A stretch of 64,000 nt of DNA from Formicincola oecophyllae (GTDB lineage Bacteria; Pseudomonadota; Alphaproteobacteria; Acetobacterales; Acetobacteraceae), in assembly GCF_006542395.2 (NCBI RefSeq), contig NZ_CP038231.1, positions 620,001 to 684,000 of the forward strand. The letters run 5' to 3'. Position 1 is the first letter of the stretch; every line of letters begins with the position of its first letter. The notes under the pieces were generated by a model that was given only the letters and a program-made list of their open reading frames with translations, made no database searches and was not told where the DNA came from. Below, one piece after another: positions 1,502 through 11,592 of the stretch. The position numbers were made by a program, and so were the translations under genes.

Positions 1502-1742
1502 GGGCGCTTCTCCACAAAAGGCACAAACATGGGCGGCAGGCAAGCTGGCATGGCATGGCGCTAGCGGCGCTGAAGGTAAGGCAGCCACGTGCCATTACCC
1601 CATGCCCTCCCTGTCATAACATGCTAAACAGGCCTAAACGAACCCTGCAGCCCGCCCCGCCCCTGATGATGGTTGGCGCGCTGCCAGATGCGCGCCACAG
1701 GTGCGCCTGCACCGTGCAGTGCCCCGCAACCCAGGAATCCCC

Positions 1743-2438
1743 ATGCGACTGCTCATTGTTGAAGATGACCCCACCGTCCGTAACTTCATCTTGAAGGGTC
1801 TGCGTGAATCAGGCCACGTTGCCGATGAGGCCGCCAACGGCAAAGATGGCCTGTTCCTGGCGGTATCAGAAGCCTATGACGTTATCATCCTGGACCGTAT
1901 GTTGCCTGGTGGCATTGATGGGCTGAACATCCTTGAGACCTTGCGTGCCCAGGATAACCACACGCCCGTTCTGGTCCTTTCCGCTTTAGCGGACGTGGAT
2001 GAACGTGTGGCAGGCCTCAAGGCGGGTTCAGACGATTATGTAACCAAGCCTTTCGCCTTTTCGGAGTTGCTGGCGCGGGTGGAGGCACTGGGGCGGCGCA
2101 GCAGCCCTGAGAACGCCCCCCGCACCAACATAGAAGTTGGCACCCTTTCACTGGACCTGCTGGCCCGTGAGGTGCGGCGTGATGGCAAACGTATTCTTGT
2201 GCAGCCCCGTGAATTCCGTTTGCTGGAATTCCTGGCCCGTCATGCTGGGCAGGTCGTTACCCGCACCATGCTGCTTGAAAAAGTCTGGGACTACCATTTC
2301 GACCCACAGACCAATGTGATTGACGTTCATGTTTCCCGACTGCGCCAAAAAGTGGACAAGCCTTTTGAACGCCCCCTCATCCACACGGTGCGCAACGCTG
2401 GCTACATTCTACGCTCTGACCTGGACGAAGGGTCCTGA
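1743..2438 (+). CDS. OmpR/PhoB-family response regulator
   Basis: DNA-binding response regulator of 231 residues. Residues 1-115 form a receiver domain with acidic pair E7-D8-D9, phosphoacceptor D51 (VIILDRMLP) and the conserved Lys in YVTKPF (K102). The C-terminal half is a winged helix with PREFRLLEFLARHAGQVVTR and VIDVHVSRLRQKVD, ending in VRNAGYIL, typical of OmpR/PhoB regulators. ATG 1743 starts directly at MRLLIVEDD; an AGGA lies about 6-8 nt before it. The frame is open 14 codons further upstream, but those residues do not fit the domain. The partner kinase starts 14 nt downstream, so the two are co-transcribed. Similarity in style to CusR/CopR/TctD regulators suggests an envelope or metal signal, but that is inference. 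Confidence 0.93.
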   Translation: MRLLIVEDDPTVRNFILKGLRESGHVADEAANGKDGLFLAVSEAYDVIILDRMLPGGIDGLNILETLRAQDNHTPVLVLSALADVDERVAGLKAGSDDYVTKPFAFSELLARVEALGRRSSPENAPRTNIEVGTLSLDLLAREVRRDGKRILVQPREFRLLEFLARHAGQVVTRTMLLEKVWDYHFDPQTNVIDVHVSRLRQKVDKPFERPLIHTVRNAGYILRSDLDEGS

Positions 2439-2452
2439 GCCAGGAAAGGCCC

Positions 2453-4021
2453 ATGCCCCCTGCACAGGCAGGCAAAGCGCCCCACCGCAGCAAGGGGCGC
2501 CTGCGCCCTGTGATGCAGCGCCTCAGCCGGCACCTGCACCAACACTGGCCGGTCCGATCTGTGGGGCTGACCTTCGCCATGGTTTATGGTGGTGTGTTCG
2601 TGGTCTCGGCCATTATGTTCCTGTCTTTCACATGGTGGAACACGGCACGGCTCCTCAACGACCATATTGAACATGCCATCACCCACGATGCCTCAGACCT
2701 GCTGGCACGCTGGGCCACAGCTGGCAGTGGTGGGTTAAGCCATGCCTTGCGCCTGCGCATCGAGCAGGACATCGGCGGCGATGCCATTTACCTGCTCATC
2801 TCACCCCAAGGGCAGGCTGAAGGTGGCAACATAGACCGCTGGCCTGTGCAGGTGGCAGGGACCAAGCGTTTCTATCAATTGAGCCTACGCCATGGCGGCG
2901 GGGAAATGCCTGTGATGGTGCATTCATGGGCTTTGCCAGACGGGCAGCGGCTTTTGGTGGGGCGTGACGTCAAAGCGCTGCCCATGATGCGCAAAGTCAT
3001 GACGCAGGCCTTCCTATGGTGCTTGCTCATGGTCGTTCTTCTGGCGCTGGGCGGGGCACTGATCGTGCAGACTTTGTTCCGGCACATGGTCACTGCTGTG
3101 GCGCGCACCACTGCTGCCATCGCTGAAGGGGACTTGTCACGCCGCATCCCCCTGAACGGCAGTGAAACGGACTTGGTGGCTGTGACCGTCAACCGGATGC
3201 TGACGCGCATCGACAAGCTGATGAGGGGCGTGCGGCAAGTCTCAAACGCCATTGCCCATGATTTGCGCACCCCCATTACCAGGGCGCGCACCCGTTTGGA
3301 GGATGCGGCGCTTCATGCCAAAACCACGCAGGAATTGCACGCCGCTATTGAGGAAGCTGTGGCTGACTGCGACCACATAACAGCTATTTTCGATGCCCTG
3401 CTGCGCATTGCCCAAATTGAGGCTGGGGCGCGCCGCCAAGCTTTCGCGCCAGCCAACCCCACACAGCTTCTGCGGTCATTGGCAGAGCTTTATGAGGCCG
3501 TCACGGAGGATGCGGGCCTGAAATTGCTTCTTTACGTGCCTGAACTACCAGACATCGTGTGCGACCAACACATGGTTAGCCAAGCTGTGGCCAACCTCCT
3601 CGATAATGCCATCAAATTTTCGCCCCCCCATGGCACCATCACCTTGTCAGCACGCCTGGTGCGCCAGCCCCCTGGCCCAACTGGGGTTCACGCGCGCGCT
3701 GATGGCCCGCGCCAAGCGCTTGAAATTACCGTGACGGATGCTGGACCAGGCATGCTTCCTGCAGACATGGCACGGGCCACAGCGCGCTTTTTCAGGGCGG
3801 AAGCAGCGCGCAGCACCCCTGGATCCGGCCTGGGGCTTAGTCTGGTGCACGCCATTGCAGGGCTGCACCATGGTGAAATCAGGCTGGCCAGTGGCCAGCA
3901 TGGCACCATGGACCATCCCCTTGAGAACACCCGCACTGACCCTAGCCCAGCCACGCTGCCTGCCCTGCCAGGACTGCGCGCTACCCTTGTCCTGCCTTTG
4001 CAGGCACCTGGGGATCATTGA
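2453..4021 (+). CDS. Sensor histidine kinase (HAMP, HisKA, HATPase)
   Basis: Inner-membrane sensor kinase of 522 residues paired with the preceding regulator. Order: cytoplasmic basic N-terminus, TM1 about 39-62, a periplasmic sensor loop of about 120 residues, TM2 about 186-208, HAMP 209-262 and the H-box with phosphorylated His269 (IAHDLRTP). The ATPase domain follows: N-box LLDNAIKF (N385), DAGPGM at 429-434 and GSGLGLS at 457-463. The architecture matches CusS/QseC/TctE-type kinases. The start at 2453 has AGGAAAGG just upstream. Oddities are a proline-rich insertion in the ATPase domain (about 404-420) and a second insertion near the C-terminus, both variable in the family. The signal is not visible from sequence. 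The next gene, a Met/His-rich periplasmic protein, makes metal sensing a reasonable guess. Confidence 0.92.
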   Translation: MPPAQAGKAPHRSKGRLRPVMQRLSRHLHQHWPVRSVGLTFAMVYGGVFVVSAIMFLSFTWWNTARLLNDHIEHAITHDASDLLARWATAGSGGLSHALRLRIEQDIGGDAIYLLISPQGQAEGGNIDRWPVQVAGTKRFYQLSLRHGGGEMPVMVHSWALPDGQRLLVGRDVKALPMMRKVMTQAFLWCLLMVVLLALGGALIVQTLFRHMVTAVARTTAAIAEGDLSRRIPLNGSETDLVAVTVNRMLTRIDKLMRGVRQVSNAIAHDLRTPITRARTRLEDAALHAKTTQELHAAIEEAVADCDHITAIFDALLRIAQIEAGARRQAFAPANPTQLLRSLAELYEAVTEDAGLKLLLYVPELPDIVCDQHMVSQAVANLLDNAIKFSPPHGTITLSARLVRQPPGPTGVHARADGPRQALEITVTDAGPGMLPADMARATARFFRAEAARSTPGSGLGLSLVHAIAGLHHGEIRLASGQHGTMDHPLENTRTDPSPATLPALPGLRATLVLPLQAPGDH

Positions 4022-4155
4022 GGGATGACAGGCCCATAAGGAAATCATCACCAATTTTAAAATATCACGGTGTTGCCATAAATAATCATGGTCTTGCCAC
4101 AAAAGGCCAGCATCCATGAACCATGAACAAATTCACGCACGGGAAAATAAAACCC

Positions 4156-5052
4156 ATGGCTTCTTCACACAAAAACGCCCTGTCACCCTCCAGGTTCCTT
4201 GGTCAGGTTCTGGGGGCTGGCACCGCACTGGGGCTTGGCATGGTTCTGGCTGCCAGCTTCACCACCGCTCACGCCCATGAAGGGGGACCTGCTGACCATT
4301 TGCCCCCATCCCCCCCGCCGTGCCCCATGATGATGCACCATATGATGCCGCCACCCGGCACTACGCTGAGCTACACGACCACAGGTCACGCCAAGGCCAT
4401 GCCAACGCGCCTGACCATCAGGCTCACAGCGCAGCAAAGCGCCCCCACACCAGCTGACGCCCAAACAGCCCTGAACAAGCAAATGGAAACAGCCATGCAG
4501 ACTGCTGGCGGCCATAAGGGCATCACAGCGCTGGCAGAAAACTACACCCTTTCGGACCAAACCCCTGACAAATCCCAGACAAGCCGCTGGGTGGCCAACC
4601 AAAGCATGTCCCTGACCGGCAATGATTCACACGCTTTGCTGGGCCTGGCTGAAAAACTGCAGAAGCAGGGGTTGGGCATTGACGACATGAATTGGTCACT
4701 GACAGACAGCGCGCGTGAGAAACTTGAGGACCAGGCGCGTGAGCAGGCCCTGACCAAAGTGCGGCCCACTGCTGAATCAGATGCGCGCATGCTTGGCCTG
4801 CACCTGTTCAAGCTGGAGAGCGTACGTGTTGGTCCAGGCCCCATGCCACCGGTTTTCGCACGCCCCATGATGATGATGGCCGCACGCGCCAATGCAGCCC
4901 CTGCCCCCCAAACCAGCCCTTCAGAGCAAACGGTTGAAGTGACGGTGCGGGTGCGTGCCATCCTGATGGGTGAACACCACCATGGTCCGCATGGGCCAGG
5001 ACCAATGGAGCACCCTGGTGCTGATACAGCTGGGCCAGCCCCAGCGCACTGA
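4156..5052 (+). CDS. Periplasmic SIMPL-domain (DUF541) protein, Met/His-rich
   Basis: Exported protein of 298 residues. A signal peptide is visible (hydrophobic about 16-35, Ala-His-Ala cleavage near 40). The SIMPL core runs about 75-260: an alternating-strand start, the helix TPADAQTALNKQME, the central AENYTLSDQTP and the late helix REKLEDQAREQALTKVRPTA. Around this core lie candidate metal ligands: a Cys-Pro-Met3-His2-Met2 run at 56-64, a Met4 run at about 238-241 and a His-rich tail (EHHHGPHGPGPMEHPG). SIMPL proteins such as YggE are linked to stress, but their biochemistry is poorly known. The start could also be ATG 4123, 11 codons earlier; neither ribosome-binding site is strong, and 4156 gives a cleaner signal peptide. 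It follows the two-component genes after 134 nt, so it probably has its own promoter and may be their target. Confidence 0.8.
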   Translation: MASSHKNALSPSRFLGQVLGAGTALGLGMVLAASFTTAHAHEGGPADHLPPSPPPCPMMMHHMMPPPGTTLSYTTTGHAKAMPTRLTIRLTAQQSAPTPADAQTALNKQMETAMQTAGGHKGITALAENYTLSDQTPDKSQTSRWVANQSMSLTGNDSHALLGLAEKLQKQGLGIDDMNWSLTDSAREKLEDQAREQALTKVRPTAESDARMLGLHLFKLESVRVGPGPMPPVFARPMMMMAARANAAPAPQTSPSEQTVEVTVRVRAILMGEHHHGPHGPGPMEHPGADTAGPAPAH

Positions 5053-6244: not shown

Positions 6245-8029
6245 TTAATTGGCGCCGTCAGCCATGCCGTAGCGCATGGGGGGATGGGGCCCCAGCACCA
6301 CTGGGTAGGTGTGGGTGCCATCAGCGCGCTTGACGGTGAAGGTGATACGGTCGCCCGGACGCGCAGTGGCGATGGAGCGGAAAATAGTCCGGGCACTGGT
6401 CACCTTCACCCCGCCAACCGCCAATAGGCGGTCGTTGGTCCGCACGCCCGCTTTCCAGGCAGGGCCGTTCTTCTCCACATCCGCCACCAAAATGGGCGTT
6501 GTGGTCTCATCAAGGATGATGCCAGCCCAACCATGGCGCACATGGCCTGTGCGGACGATTTCATCCACCACCACGGCCACAATGGCTGAAGGGATGCCGA
6601 AACCAATCCCCACGGAACCATCAGAAGGGCTAGCGATGGCGGCGTTCATAGCCACCACTTCCCCACGAAGGTTGAAGGCCGGCCCACCAGAATTGCCAGG
6701 GTTGATGGGGGCATCAATCTGCATGAAGTTGTCCAAGGGGCCAATGCCCAGGTCACGCCCAATGGCAGAAATAATGCCCGCCGTCACTGAAGAGCCGAAG
6801 CCAAAAGGATTGCCGGCTACCAGGATCCAATCACCAATGTCCACATGGTTGCTGTCGCCCCATGGCACGGAAGGCAGCGGTTCTGAACTGTCCACTTTCA
6901 GCACGGCGATGTCCGTCATGGGGTCATCCCCTATGGAATGCGCTTTGAGGATACGCCCATCAGACAACGACACAGTGACAGTGGGTGAATGGCCAATCAC
7001 ATGCAGATTGGTCACCACAATGCCTGACGGGTCGATGATGAAGCCTGACCCAGCGCTGCTGCCGTCATTTTCCCCAGGCACCAAGGCCGCTGGCTGCAGA
7101 AGGCCGTGGGCACCGCGCCGCTTGGCCTTGGGCGGCACATGTTGGGTCGGCCTTTTGCCCACTTTCTTGGCAGGGGTCTTAGCTGGCGGGGTGCGATCAT
7201 GGCTACGCTCATGGGGGTGCGCGGCATGGGGGTGGTTTGCCTTGGGCGCAGGCTTGGTGGGGGCCTTGGGCTTGGCATGTGCTTCACTGCGGGGCTTGGT
7301 GCTCTTGCGCGCATGGTGAGGGGGCGGGGGGGTGGCACGCTTGTGTTTTTCGCGGTGGTGGCTACGCAGCGGGGCTGTGTGAGCGGGGGGAGCTTCCTCA
7401 TCAGCGCTGGCATCATCGTCATTGCTCTCATCACCAGCCTCGTCATCATCAGTAACAGCATCGCCATCACCGACTGAAATATTGACCACCGCCGGAATCA
7501 CCAACCTGACAAGGGGGGAAAATGAGGGGAGGTCGACCAGAATGGGATGTTTGACGTCAGCAGCCAGCAAACGCCCAGCCAAGCTTGGGGCATTCTGCGG
7601 CAGGACCAGGGCTGGCGAAACGGGGATGGGGCGCCTGAAGCGTTCCAGAAGTGGCCTGTGATGTGCTGCCGCCACAGGCTGCCCATCAGGCCCCACAGGC
7701 ACGATCATGGGGCGTGTCAACCACAAATAGGCCCCCAGGATGAGGCCAGCACCCACAAGCCCCCAGAAAGCGGGCAGCACACCATGGGCGATGAAACTGT
7801 GCTGCTCCAGGAAGGTAGGCGTGTAGTCCTCATCCTCCTCCAAGCCATAGGCTGGCTGGGCACCCAATGGTTCACCAGCCCGGAACACCCCCTCTAGCCC
7901 TGCGTGCATGGCGTGGGGGGGCAGGGGGGCACCAGGGACCGGGCCTTGGCCTTCAGCCTGTTGCTTTGGCTGAGGGGGCCTATCCTCCCCAGCAGCCCCT
8001 GGGAAGGTTCTGTCAACGTTGTTAGTCAT
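6245..8029 (-). CDS. Membrane-anchored HtrA/DegP-like serine protease with PDZ domain
   Basis: Envelope serine protease of 594 residues. A single TM segment (about 84-107) follows an acidic cytoplasmic N-terminus and would place the rest in the periplasm. The trypsin-like fold starts with IPAVVNISVG (179-188) and resumes at SAGSGFIID (325-333). Catalytic residues are His343 (TNLHVI), Asp373 (TDIAVLK) and Ser447 (GNSGGP). A PDZ domain follows (about 498-580, with GWAGIILDE and GPAWKAGVRTNDRLLAVGG). Between the first strand and GSGFIID sits about 130 residues of insertion: Asp/Glu-rich (190-213), then Lys/His/Pro-rich (220-308). That is the position of the regulatory LA loop of DegP. The start is ATG 8029, with GGGAGGG upstream; a longer open frame overlaps hrpB and is unlikely. 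Confidence 0.9.
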   Translation of the reverse strand: MTNNVDRTFPGAAGEDRPPQPKQQAEGQGPVPGAPLPPHAMHAGLEGVFRAGEPLGAQPAYGLEEDEDYTPTFLEQHSFIAHGVLPAFWGLVGAGLILGAYLWLTRPMIVPVGPDGQPVAAAHHRPLLERFRRPIPVSPALVLPQNAPSLAGRLLAADVKHPILVDLPSFSPLVRLVIPAVVNISVGDGDAVTDDDEAGDESNDDDASADEEAPPAHTAPLRSHHREKHKRATPPPPHHARKSTKPRSEAHAKPKAPTKPAPKANHPHAAHPHERSHDRTPPAKTPAKKVGKRPTQHVPPKAKRRGAHGLLQPAALVPGENDGSSAGSGFIIDPSGIVVTNLHVIGHSPTVTVSLSDGRILKAHSIGDDPMTDIAVLKVDSSEPLPSVPWGDSNHVDIGDWILVAGNPFGFGSSVTAGIISAIGRDLGIGPLDNFMQIDAPINPGNSGGPAFNLRGEVVAMNAAIASPSDGSVGIGFGIPSAIVAVVVDEIVRTGHVRHGWAGIILDETTTPILVADVEKNGPAWKAGVRTNDRLLAVGGVKVTSARTIFRSIATARPGDRITFTVKRADGTHTYPVVLGPHPPMRYGMADGAN

Positions 8030-8165
8030 TGATACCCTCCCGGTCCCTAGCGGTTGCGAGCAGCCTGCATTTTTGCGGCAAAATACTGGCAACGCTTGAT
8101 TCAAAGCAGGCAGTTTAGCACAGCCCCCAACGCTGCACGCCCCCACCAGGGGGGTGGAACGCCCT

Positions 8166-11030
8166 TCAAAAGGATTTGGAAGGGTTTTCAGGCCACATGT
8201 GCTTGGGGTAACGGCTGCGCATGTCACGGCGCGCATCATGCCATCCCGCCAGCCAGAAACTGGCTAAATCATCTGTTAGTGCTATGGGACGGCCCGCTGG
8301 GGAGAGCAGTTCAGCCTGCACATTTTGGCCACCAATACGTGGCAAAGAGGTCACACCATAGAAATCCTGGGCACGCGCTGAAATCCGCACGCGCCCAGCA
8401 TGGTGAACGGCGGCGTAATCTACAGCCACGCTGCGCCCGTTGAGGGGCAGACGCGCTGGATAGTGTTTGTCCAGCATCTGCCTCCCTTCCCGCCCAAGTA
8501 AAGCTGCCAGAAGGGTAGTCACGTCCCGTTCCGCCAGCGCAGCCAGGCTGGTGGCACCCCCAACCCAAATCAACACGGCCTGGGCAGGGCTGCCTGGCTG
8601 GAGGTTTTCAGGCTGGGTCACATGGCTGGCAGCAAGGGCGAAAAGGTTTTTCAAGGCTGCGTCACTGACGTCAGGCCAAGTAGCATCTAGCTTAGGCGTG
8701 CCCTTTGTGCCCCCTTCCTGAGAAGCCGCGTAAACCATCCTGGCTTGAAAAGCCCGTGCAGCCTCATTCCAGCCCAGACGCCCCAGGTCTTTGGCCACCA
8801 TTTCCAGCAAAGCTGCCATGGTGTCCTCTGCCGTGCAGTCAGCCAGCCCCTCATGCAGAACAAGGGAGCCAAAGCGCTGTTTCACGCGCACCACCACACG
8901 GCCAGAGACGCCATCGAAACTGCGCTGGCGTTCAGTCAATACATGAGGGCGCAGGTTTTCAGGCAGGATCAGGGCGGCGTCCCCAGCGGTTTTGTCGGCT
9001 GGGTTTTTGGTAAGGCTTGCGGGGAGGCGCTTTGGCTGGGCCAGATCTTCCAGGTTTTGCACCGTGGGGCCGAAAGGGGGCTTTGCCGGCTTTGGCTGCC
9101 CCTCCGCACGCGCCAAAGGCGCTGCCATGGTGATGGTGACGCTGCGCCCAGCGTGAAGTGTGGCCACGGCTAGGAAGTTATCGCGCGCTAGCCCATCGCG
9201 CCCTTCCAGATGGGCTGCCCCGCCACCTGCCAAGCGGTAGCGGCCCTCCTGCCCACCACCTGTGCGCTGCGCCAGCCGTTCTGGAAAACCAGCCGCCACC
9301 AACTGACCTGCCAAGCCTGGGCGCTTCATGGCTTGAGCAAGCTTGGCGCGGGCATTGGGGGCGCCCTCTAACCCTAAACGGCCCAGCAAGCGCAGCCAGG
9401 CCTTCTCCAGCAACGGCACCACATGGCGCGGCAACATGTAGCGCGCTGCCACAGCCCCCCCTGCTGGCCCCAGCAACGCCAGGCGTTCCAGCAATGAGGC
9501 GCCTGGATTGGGGGTGCGCTCACGCTGGCGGCGGCGCAGGGGGTCGCCTTCCTCAATCACGGCAGCTAAGGCGCACGCCAACACACGGCCCGCCTCATCA
9601 TCAGCGGCCAACATCATGGCGGCCAGACGCGGATGGGTGCCAAGATCCGCCATGCGCTTGCCCAGCGCCGTAATGCGGTGGGTTGGCGCGCCTTCATCAG
9701 GGTCCGCCCCATCACCCAAAGGTGCTGAAGCCAGCTCCAGCGCGCCAATCTGGACCAAAAGGCTGCGTGCAGCCGCAAGCGCCCCTTCTGGTGGGGGGGT
9801 GATGAAAGGCAATGCACTGCTGGCCGTGCCCATTGTTTCCTCCCAAGAGGCCATCATGAGGGCGAGGGCCGTCAGGTCGGCTTCCAAGATGTCAGGGGGG
9901 GTGTCAGGCACAAGAGCGCGCTGCTGGGCTTCCGGCCACAGGCGCACAGCCAGGCCAGGGCGTTGGCGCCCAGCGCGGCCTGCACGCTGCTGGGCACTGG
10001 CGCGTGATATGCGGCGCGTTTTCAACACAGGCAGCCCTGATGCCTGGTCGCGCTCAGGGGTGCGGCGGAAGCCGCAATCCACCACAGCCTCAACGCCGTC
10101 CACCGTCACGGAACTTTCCGCAATGGTGGTGGCCAGCACAACGCGTTTGCCAGCTTTGCCTTCAGGCCCCAACAAAGCAAGGGCCTGGTCTTCTGGGCGC
10201 TGTTCACCGTAAAGCGGGTAAACAGGCATGTTGGGCAATAAAGCCATGGTGCGCCTGATTTCGCCTACGCCTGGCAGGAACACCAGGATGGAACCTTCCA
10301 CCTTGTCCCACAGCCTTTTGACAGCGCTAGCGGCGGCGTCCTCCATGCGGCCCCCAGCCCCAGGGGCGTTGGCACGGCTGCGCGCGCCACGTCCCAAAGG
10401 GGGTGCACCTGCCACAAGGGCCATTTCAGGACCGTGCTGAACCGTGACGGGATGGCTGCGCCCAGCACTCTCAATCAAAGGGGCAGACTGTTGCGGCGTT
10501 GAGAGGGCCTGGCAGAAAGCCTTGGCGTCCAGCGTGGCGGACATGGCGACAAGGCGCAGTTCCGGCCGCAGAAGGCTGCGGGCCTCCAAACAGAAAGCAA
10601 GAGCGCTGTCAGCATCTGTGCCACGCTCGTGCACCTCATCAAACAGGACGCATCCCACCCCTGGCAGGAAAGGGTCTGCTAGCAGGCGGCGCAGGAACAG
10701 CCCATCCGTTAGGACTTCAATGCGGGTGGCGGCTGAAAGCTTGCGGTCGGTGCGCGTGGCGTAACCCACCAGCTGCCCCACAGGCTGGCCTAACAAGTGC
10801 GCCATATGGGCTGCCGCGCCACGCACGGCCACGCGGCGCGGTTCCACCAGGATGATTTTCCCCCGGCCCAACCACGCTGGCGCTGCCTCAAGCAGGGCAA
10901 GGGGCACGCGTGTGGTTTTTCCTGCGCCAGGTGGGGCTGCCAAAACCGCTGATGGCCCCGCTTCAAGCGCCTTCAACAGGGGGGGAAGTACATCCTCAAC
11001 AGGTACTGAAGGGCGTTTGGGCGATGACAT
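8166..11030 (-). CDS. hrpB: ATP-dependent helicase HrpB
   Basis: DEAH-box-type helicase of about 954 residues, cytoplasmic, of the HrpB family whose cellular role is not well defined. Walker A is AAPPGAGKTT near residue 35, motif II is FDEVHERG, motif III is AMSATLD, and motif VI is SRASAQQRAGRAGR. These are followed by the helicase-associated domain and the long HrpB-specific C-terminal region (KQRFGSL, HYPARLPL, PLNGRSVAVDY). It is longer than E. coli HrpB (about 809) because of linkers. I chose ATG 11030 (MSSPKRPS), which leaves 13 nt after the apt stop; the frame is open upstream but would run into apt. With apt directly upstream on the same strand, the two are probably co-transcribed. 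Confidence 0.92.
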   Translation of the reverse strand: MSSPKRPSVPVEDVLPPLLKALEAGPSAVLAAPPGAGKTTRVPLALLEAAPAWLGRGKIILVEPRRVAVRGAAAHMAHLLGQPVGQLVGYATRTDRKLSAATRIEVLTDGLFLRRLLADPFLPGVGCVLFDEVHERGTDADSALAFCLEARSLLRPELRLVAMSATLDAKAFCQALSTPQQSAPLIESAGRSHPVTVQHGPEMALVAGAPPLGRGARSRANAPGAGGRMEDAAASAVKRLWDKVEGSILVFLPGVGEIRRTMALLPNMPVYPLYGEQRPEDQALALLGPEGKAGKRVVLATTIAESSVTVDGVEAVVDCGFRRTPERDQASGLPVLKTRRISRASAQQRAGRAGRQRPGLAVRLWPEAQQRALVPDTPPDILEADLTALALMMASWEETMGTASSALPFITPPPEGALAAARSLLVQIGALELASAPLGDGADPDEGAPTHRITALGKRMADLGTHPRLAAMMLAADDEAGRVLACALAAVIEEGDPLRRRQRERTPNPGASLLERLALLGPAGGAVAARYMLPRHVVPLLEKAWLRLLGRLGLEGAPNARAKLAQAMKRPGLAGQLVAAGFPERLAQRTGGGQEGRYRLAGGGAAHLEGRDGLARDNFLAVATLHAGRSVTITMAAPLARAEGQPKPAKPPFGPTVQNLEDLAQPKRLPASLTKNPADKTAGDAALILPENLRPHVLTERQRSFDGVSGRVVVRVKQRFGSLVLHEGLADCTAEDTMAALLEMVAKDLGRLGWNEAARAFQARMVYAASQEGGTKGTPKLDATWPDVSDAALKNLFALAASHVTQPENLQPGSPAQAVLIWVGGATSLAALAERDVTTLLAALLGREGRQMLDKHYPARLPLNGRSVAVDYAAVHHAGRVRISARAQDFYGVTSLPRIGGQNVQAELLSPAGRPIALTDDLASFWLAGWHDARRDMRSRYPKHMWPENPSKSF

Positions 11031-11043
11031 GACGGCAGTCAGG

Positions 11044-11592
11044 TCAGGCTTCCTGGTAGGTGACGAGGCTGGTGAGGGGGATGCCCAGTCCCTCGATCCT
11101 GGCGCGTCCACCCAAGCCTTCAAGCTCTATCATCACAACAGCGCCCACCACCTTCGCCCCTGCTTGGCCCAGAAGCTTGATGGAGGCCTCAAGCGTGCCG
11201 CCCGTGGCCAAGAGGTCATCGAGCACCACCACGCGTTGGCCAGGCTTGACAGCGCCTTTTTGCAAGTGGAGGGCATCTGTGCCGTATTCCAAGCCATAGC
11301 TGAGGGAAATGGTCTCCCCCGGCAGCTTGCCTGGTTTGCGCAACATGGTGAACCCTAGTCCCAAGCGCCCTGCCAAAGGCGCCGAAAGCAGGAATCCACG
11401 GCTTTCCACCCCTGCCAACAGCTCTGGCGCGCAGGCCATGGTCGCGCGGGAAAGGCGCTCCAGCGCCACAGCCCAGCCATCGGCATCCCCCAAAAGCGAG
11501 GAGATGTCATAGAAAAGAATGCCGGGTTTGGGGAAATCCGGCACTTCACGAATGTAGCGCTTAAGGTCAATGGGGGCTGGAGGATTGAACAT
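11044..11592 (-). CDS. apt: Adenine phosphoribosyltransferase
   Basis: Cytoplasmic purine-salvage enzyme converting adenine and PRPP to AMP and pyrophosphate. It has 182 residues, a normal length. It begins with the family pattern [22 protein letters not shown] and carries the PRPP-binding motif [13 protein letters not shown]. The flexible-loop region [22 protein letters not shown] is also present. ATG 11592 is preceded by AGGAGC at good spacing; an earlier in-frame ATG (11646) has no such support. hrpB follows after 13 nt and a Bcr/CflA-type exporter lies 87 nt upstream on the same strand. Confidence 0.95.

Follow-up and report, generated by a model that had tools for sequence, protein, structure and literature searches.

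A predicted disordered, charged insertion at the LA-loop position of a single-PDZ HtrA-type protease in Formicincola oecophyllae and its relatives

Introduction

HtrA/Deg proteases combine a trypsin-like catalytic triad with at least one C-terminal PDZ domain and a regulatory LA loop between strands beta1 and beta2 of the protease fold. DegP and DegQ carry a pair of PDZ domains and lack a membrane helix. AlgW of Pseudomonas aeruginosa (PDB 7co2, 7co3, 7co5 and 7co7) is membrane-anchored and has a single PDZ domain, and DegS of E. coli (3gdv and 6ew9) likewise consists of a transmembrane segment, a protease domain and one PDZ domain. The LA loop regulates activity in DegP, DegQ and MucD, and the LA loops of DegP touch loops L1 and L2 of the opposing trimer (PMC11642142, excerpt). 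In AlgW, whose LA loop is of ordinary length and can be ordered, activity was lost once LA residues 76–97 were removed, and mutations in the hinge increased Vmax; the DegS loop is shorter than that of AlgW (PMC8545111, excerpt). Since LA loops are seldom resolved, few regulatory parts of HtrA proteases are less visible.

Here we describe an HtrA-type protease encoded in a 64,000-nucleotide stretch of the F. oecophyllae genome (the window; contig NZ_CP038231.1, positions 620,001–684,000), for which an earlier note, made from the sequence, had proposed a long charged insertion in place of the LA loop. In an acetic acid bacterium, degP mutations are the subject of PMC9135448 (excerpt); our search of the open-licence literature found no paper that describes a loop of this kind in an HtrA protease or that deals with this protein in acetic acid bacteria. 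The enzyme itself is ordinary and the system is not of a new kind; the loop is a variant, restricted to one lineage, of a regulatory element already known.

Results

The gene is a single open reading frame of 594 amino acids on the minus strand (window positions 6245–8029, including the stop codon), which starts with the ATG at 8029 and stops at 6245–6247; all further features given for it lie on the same strand. A GGGAGGG motif, judged by eye to resemble a ribosome-binding site, lies 5 nt upstream of the ATG (8035–8041). Two open frames on the opposite strand (6309–7319 and 7106–7477) were interpreted as shadow frames due to the GC-rich coding strand. Elsewhere in the window, a SIMPL/DUF541 protein (4123–5052) has a Met/His/Pro-rich patch near its N terminus and is adjoined by a two-component system (1701–4021).

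Three defining features of HtrA/Deg proteases are present in the protein. Pfam placed Trypsin_2 at residues 327–461 (107.7 bits; cut-off 27.6) and its only PDZ domain, PDZ_2, at residues 503–577 (6299–6523; 46.4 bits; cut-off 27). The rest of the trypsin-like protease domain, beyond beta1 and the insertion and delimited from Pfam, alignment and model, spans residues 324–494 (6548–7060) and contains an intact catalytic triad, H343, D373 and S447, which was invariant across 36 aligned proteins. A membrane anchor, as the earlier note had claimed, is likewise predicted: AlphaFold2 modelled a transmembrane helix at residues 77–104 (7718–7801), and the hydropathy windows starting at residues 79–84 were among the highest. 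The helix is preceded by a 76-residue tail (residues 1–76; 7802–8029) that is Pro-rich, acidic and predicted to be disordered. This tail appears far longer than in the aligned relatives, which seem to have few residues ahead of the helix, an approximate comparison because the start codons of the relatives were chosen by script. The protein scored under the cut-offs of both the DegP/Do model TIGR02037 (288.7 against 416.2 bits) and the DegS equivalog model TIGR02038 (187.6 against 422.95 bits), as it did for all the matching NCBIfam models, including those for DegP, DegS and DegQ. We therefore refer to it as an HtrA-type protease without a named subtype; its predicted N-terminal membrane helix and single PDZ domain constitute a DegS/AlgW-type layout. 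The genome encodes three HtrA proteins.

We located the insertion by prediction and by comparison with known structures. In the AlphaFold2 model, built with 36 alignment rows, a strand at residues 181–187 (7469–7489) is followed by coil up to residue 323, nearly all of it with pLDDT below 50, and then by a strand at residues 324–333. The first strand corresponds to beta1 in the structure alignment and is supported by PAVVNI, which is conserved in the alignment of relatives. With phmmer, the two sides of the LA loop in DegP/DegQ-type chains were matched weakly by residues 166–186 and strongly by residues 321–580; the protease domains of DegP, DegQ and MucD are about 35–40% identical to that of the window protein, but these enzymes have no comparably long charged LA loop. 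Structure alignment by VIA-align 2 matched residues 168–585 of the model to residues 53–377 of the AlgW chain 7co5 (Z 28.1; 291 residues; rmsd 4.7; 35% identity) and residues 165–585 to residues 42–354 of DegS 3gdv (Z 27.7; 285 residues; rmsd 4.3). Because the model aligns to both enzymes on both sides of the gap, the gap falls between beta1 and beta2. Taken together, these three lines of evidence place the insertion (residues 188–323; 7061–7468), which is predicted to be disordered, inside the protease fold and at the LA-loop position, as had been claimed, rather than outside the fold, and we regard this anatomy as practically certain.

Counted from PAVVNI to GSGF, the loop is 142 amino acids long; the predicted coil at residues 188–323 comprises 136. 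It contains 20 Asp/Glu, 24 Lys/Arg, 14 His and 22 Pro residues, with an acidic block at residues 188–212 (7394–7468), recognized from the sequence and its charge order, and a block rich in Lys, Arg, His and Pro at residues 217–308 (7106–7381), recognized from composition. An assembly or frame artefact was ruled out: the 594 codons are open, the synonymous codons of the insertion are mixed, no tandem repeats were found within it, and related long loops occur in other genomes.

Matches to the protein were obtained in 149 of the 150 genomes of the family, many of them belonging to other HtrA types. Loops were read in the fetched loci among these 149 genomes and counted in 60 of 61 such loci, which are of the single-PDZ type or close to it; L094 was left out since the pattern missed its start, and its loop has the motif RGTPFE. 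For the alignments A1 and A2, a stricter pattern skipped 14 of the 61 loci, and rows were hand-chosen from the remaining 47, giving 36 rows. A quick IQ-TREE tree of 63 rows (the 60 loci and the window protein, with two paralogues serving as outgroup), computed from 268 columns of post-loop residues and thus excluding the loop itself, placed the window protein in one clade with 16 proteins of five other genera, which makes 17 members and six genera in all (SH-aLRT 98). Two of the other 44 loci, L031 and L035, resemble two-PDZ proteins and are placed by the tree outside its main group of orthologues.

The loops of this clade differ from those of the other loci in length and in sequence. In the clade, the window protein has the longest copy seen (142 amino acids), followed by G104 (133); G096 and G135 have 74 and 76, eleven species of one genus have 53–87, and two species of another genus have 43 and 49. 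By contrast, the 44 other loops are 31–44 amino acids long (median 40), and 34 of them contain the motif [RK][GD]TP[LFY][EDG], which none of the 17 clade loops does. Apart from the loop, the single-PDZ orthologues of the family with a loop of 31–44 residues resemble the window protein in having the same protease and PDZ domains, with about 44–63% identity. L079 and L080, which adjoin the clade in the tree, both carry the motif in a 40-residue loop; the simplest history is therefore that the loop was replaced once, at the base of the clade, and then grew. L016, an orthologue with a 40-residue loop that we modelled with the same rows, has a predicted helix (residues 113–126; mean pLDDT 82 and 68 in its two blocks of ten) between beta1 (89–97) and beta2 (127–139), where the window protein has low-confidence coil. 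The models thus suggest the loss of an ordered LA element and the gain of a disordered one. These comparisons and predictions bear out the proposal that acidic and then Lys/His/Pro-rich blocks replace the usual LA element, and the replacement very probably took place in this one clade. Close relatives thus do have comparable charged loops, which speaks against a sequence quirk of a single genome; what is conserved is the charged loop and not a fixed length, as both length (43–142 amino acids) and sequence drift.

The gene neighbourhood supports the orthology of the compared proteins. Upstream of the window gene lies a gene for an hrpB-type helicase (8166–11123, minus strand), a conserved neighbour that we place outside the mechanism. 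hrpB was found inside the 1.5 kb flank at 33 of the 61 loci, at loci of both loop kinds (including L076, L077 and L042–L045), and in G065 it directly adjoins htrA. Nine positions distinguish the ten clade rows of A1 from its 26 others and gave no clear mechanistic lead. A contig scan yielded nine further alphaproteobacterial HtrA loci (L004–L012), which are not close orthologues; the eight readable loops among them are 54–64 amino acids long. Of two genomes from one genus, G096 yielded a close orthologue (E 8e-118) but G168 a best match of only 1.7e-68, so that single-PDZ htrA may have been lost or missed in G168.

We then compared the charge pattern across the clade. In the window loop, acidic residues precede basic ones beyond what shuffled copies give (p 0.0006). 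The first 40% of the loop is net negative in 16 of the 17 clade loops, the rest is net positive in 15, and both hold for 14, although only four show the charge order singly at p < 0.05. The loops of L014 and L071 are acid-only, and that of L077 has no acidic start. With pKa values that we set ourselves, the calculated net charge of the window loop is +7.4 at pH 7 and +28.6 at pH 4, compared with means of +1.9 and +5.6 for the 44 other loops. The two acid-only loops go from −12.7 to about −4 over the same range; as their charge stays negative, they could not be cationic tethers. Thus, with these two loops and L077 in the clade, no one charge switch suits all its members.

Discussion

We propose, with a probability of about 0.4 for the explanation as a whole, that the window protein is an inner-membrane-anchored, single-PDZ periplasmic HtrA protease, DegS/AlgW-like in layout, whose insertion acts as a flexible regulatory arm. 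By analogy with its family, the enzyme is probably active as a trimer in protein quality control of the envelope. In one branch, a short LA loop with a predicted helix was swapped for a long charged arm predicted to be disordered, and loss of the ordered element would remove or loosen the usual contacts with the active-site loops. The charged arm could weakly keep the enzyme close to unfolded clients or to anionic surfaces of the envelope, and acidification might open acid–base self-pairing of the arm and so raise binding. From the LA contacts of DegP and the AlgW loop data we infer that a flexible arm would alter, and probably loosen, gating while adding weak charge-based binding. Loss of the ordered element need not loosen the enzyme, however, since deletion of the AlgW loop killed activity (PMC8545111, excerpt). 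Looser gating, tethering and a pH response are put forward as hypotheses only. We consider the odds even that the arm is functional and not mainly the product of neutral growth. A pH response would follow from composition, since the arm, with its 20 acidic residues and 14 His, has a calculated net charge of about +7 at pH 7 that grows to about +29 when the pH drops to 4, a rise by which acidification could open the self-pairing and raise binding; we nevertheless think it unlikely. Of the roles that the earlier note suggested for the basic part, binding of peptidoglycan or LPS and action as a sensing tether may be considered; nucleic acid is an unlikely ligand for a periplasmic domain.

The serious rival, which the earlier note had not considered, is that the long arm arose by nearly neutral, low-complexity expansion after the ordered LA element was lost, driven by the readiness with which this genome acquires GC-rich, Ala/Pro/Lys/His-rich sequence, and that the protease works as before. 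We hold this to be quite possible, though at less than even odds, because the loop evolves fast and the genome gains low-complexity insertions. Comparison of 384 kb of this genome with 400 kb of the sister genome G065 gave 133 reciprocal best pairs (the control frames were taken from stop to stop, and some may be shadow frames); internal insertions of at least 30 amino acids were found in five of the 133 in this genome and in none of the 133 in the sister genome, and GC content is 0.595 here against 0.528 there. By largest single gap, htrA only shares second place, because its insertion was partly aligned to the loop of the sister protein. The LA loop of the DegQ-like paralogue is also long in this genome (101 amino acids) and in G104 (109) compared with the sister genus (59), and the drift in length across the clade points the same way. 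In ten of the 11 sister-genus orthologues (L051 was left out), pN/pS was 0.44 for the loop and 0.04 for protease plus PDZ, rough ratios given that pS is near saturation; relative to synonymous change, the loop thus changes at roughly ten times the rate of the protease. Even so, and with the same reservation about saturation, the loop value is still below 1, and all ten orthologues keep the loop end PADD(E/D)LTGA, which together suggest weak constraint, mainly on charge and on the last residues. Two further observations argue against purely neutral growth: the charge order recurs in 14 of the 17 clade loops, and the htrA loop contains the 100-residue stretch richest in Lys, Arg, His and Pro (0.59; next 0.42) among this genome's members of the 133 pairs.

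A more far-reaching reading, which we judge improbable, is that in this branch of the family the LA loop became a polyampholyte pH switch, in which the two blocks would pair at neutral pH and acid would render the loop strongly cationic, freeing the active site and docking the enzyme on the anionic envelope.

It is doubtful, too, that the loop is a site of self-cleavage or processing, at which a cut would separate the anchor and beta1 from the rest and so release or inactivate the enzyme. Self-cleavage at two sites inside the long LA loop is reported for DegP, and release from the membrane by autoprocessing for a Brevibacillus HtrA (PMC5359297, excerpt), and a predicted disordered stretch of 136 residues would be exposed. 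Such a cut would, however, leave beta1 behind. HtrA proteases prefer a small hydrophobic residue at P1, and the Pro/Lys/His-rich stretch is no obvious substrate for them.

We give similarly little weight to the idea that the protein is a DegS-type sensor that triggers regulated intramembrane proteolysis of an anti-sigma factor, with the loop as an added signal input. AlgW and DegS are among its best structural neighbours and share its membrane helix and single PDZ domain, and the genome also has a site-2 protease of the RseP type (TIGR00054, summed score 244.4 bits against a cut-off of 147.55), but proteases of this type are near universal, as all 14 control genomes match. An RseA_N-type substrate (PF03872), which AlgW has, was not found in this one genome, making a DegS-like anti-sigma role less likely despite the RseP-type protease; of the 14 control genomes, only E. 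coli matches RseA_N. A divergent substrate is possible. The score under the DegS equivalog cut-off also argues against this role. Finally, that the arm binds zinc or copper and the metal gates the protease is very improbable: the window loop has 14 His and H. pylori HtrA is inhibited by Zn and Cu, but the His count varies from 1 to 14 across the clade, we saw no conserved metal motif, and the excerpted report on the H. pylori enzyme describes no His-rich motif in its allosteric region (PMC7324608).

Whether the flexible regulatory arm or neutral growth is the better account, the family offers a natural series on one enzyme, from the 40-residue motif loop through acidic loops of 43–49 residues and charged loops of 53–87 to those of 133–142. 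This series is a ready-made test of what an LA loop requires and is of moderate interest for LA-loop function. If the long loop is functional, disordered charge can stand in for an ordered allosteric element; if it is not, little of the LA loop is needed.

Other long or expanded proteins were noted in the course of the comparison. In the DegQ-like paralogue of this genome (L003; G000:C1 about 1706914–1710666) and of G104 (L133), the expansion lies ahead of a retained PLDKF element. The hrpB-type helicase next to htrA has its own 45-residue Pro/Lys-containing insertion relative to the G065 copy. Beyond the window, at G000:C1 about 555831–577082 (L119–L120), one open frame of about 7,080 codons is partly 26% identical to an open frame of the sister genome and probably encodes a giant surface or secreted protein.
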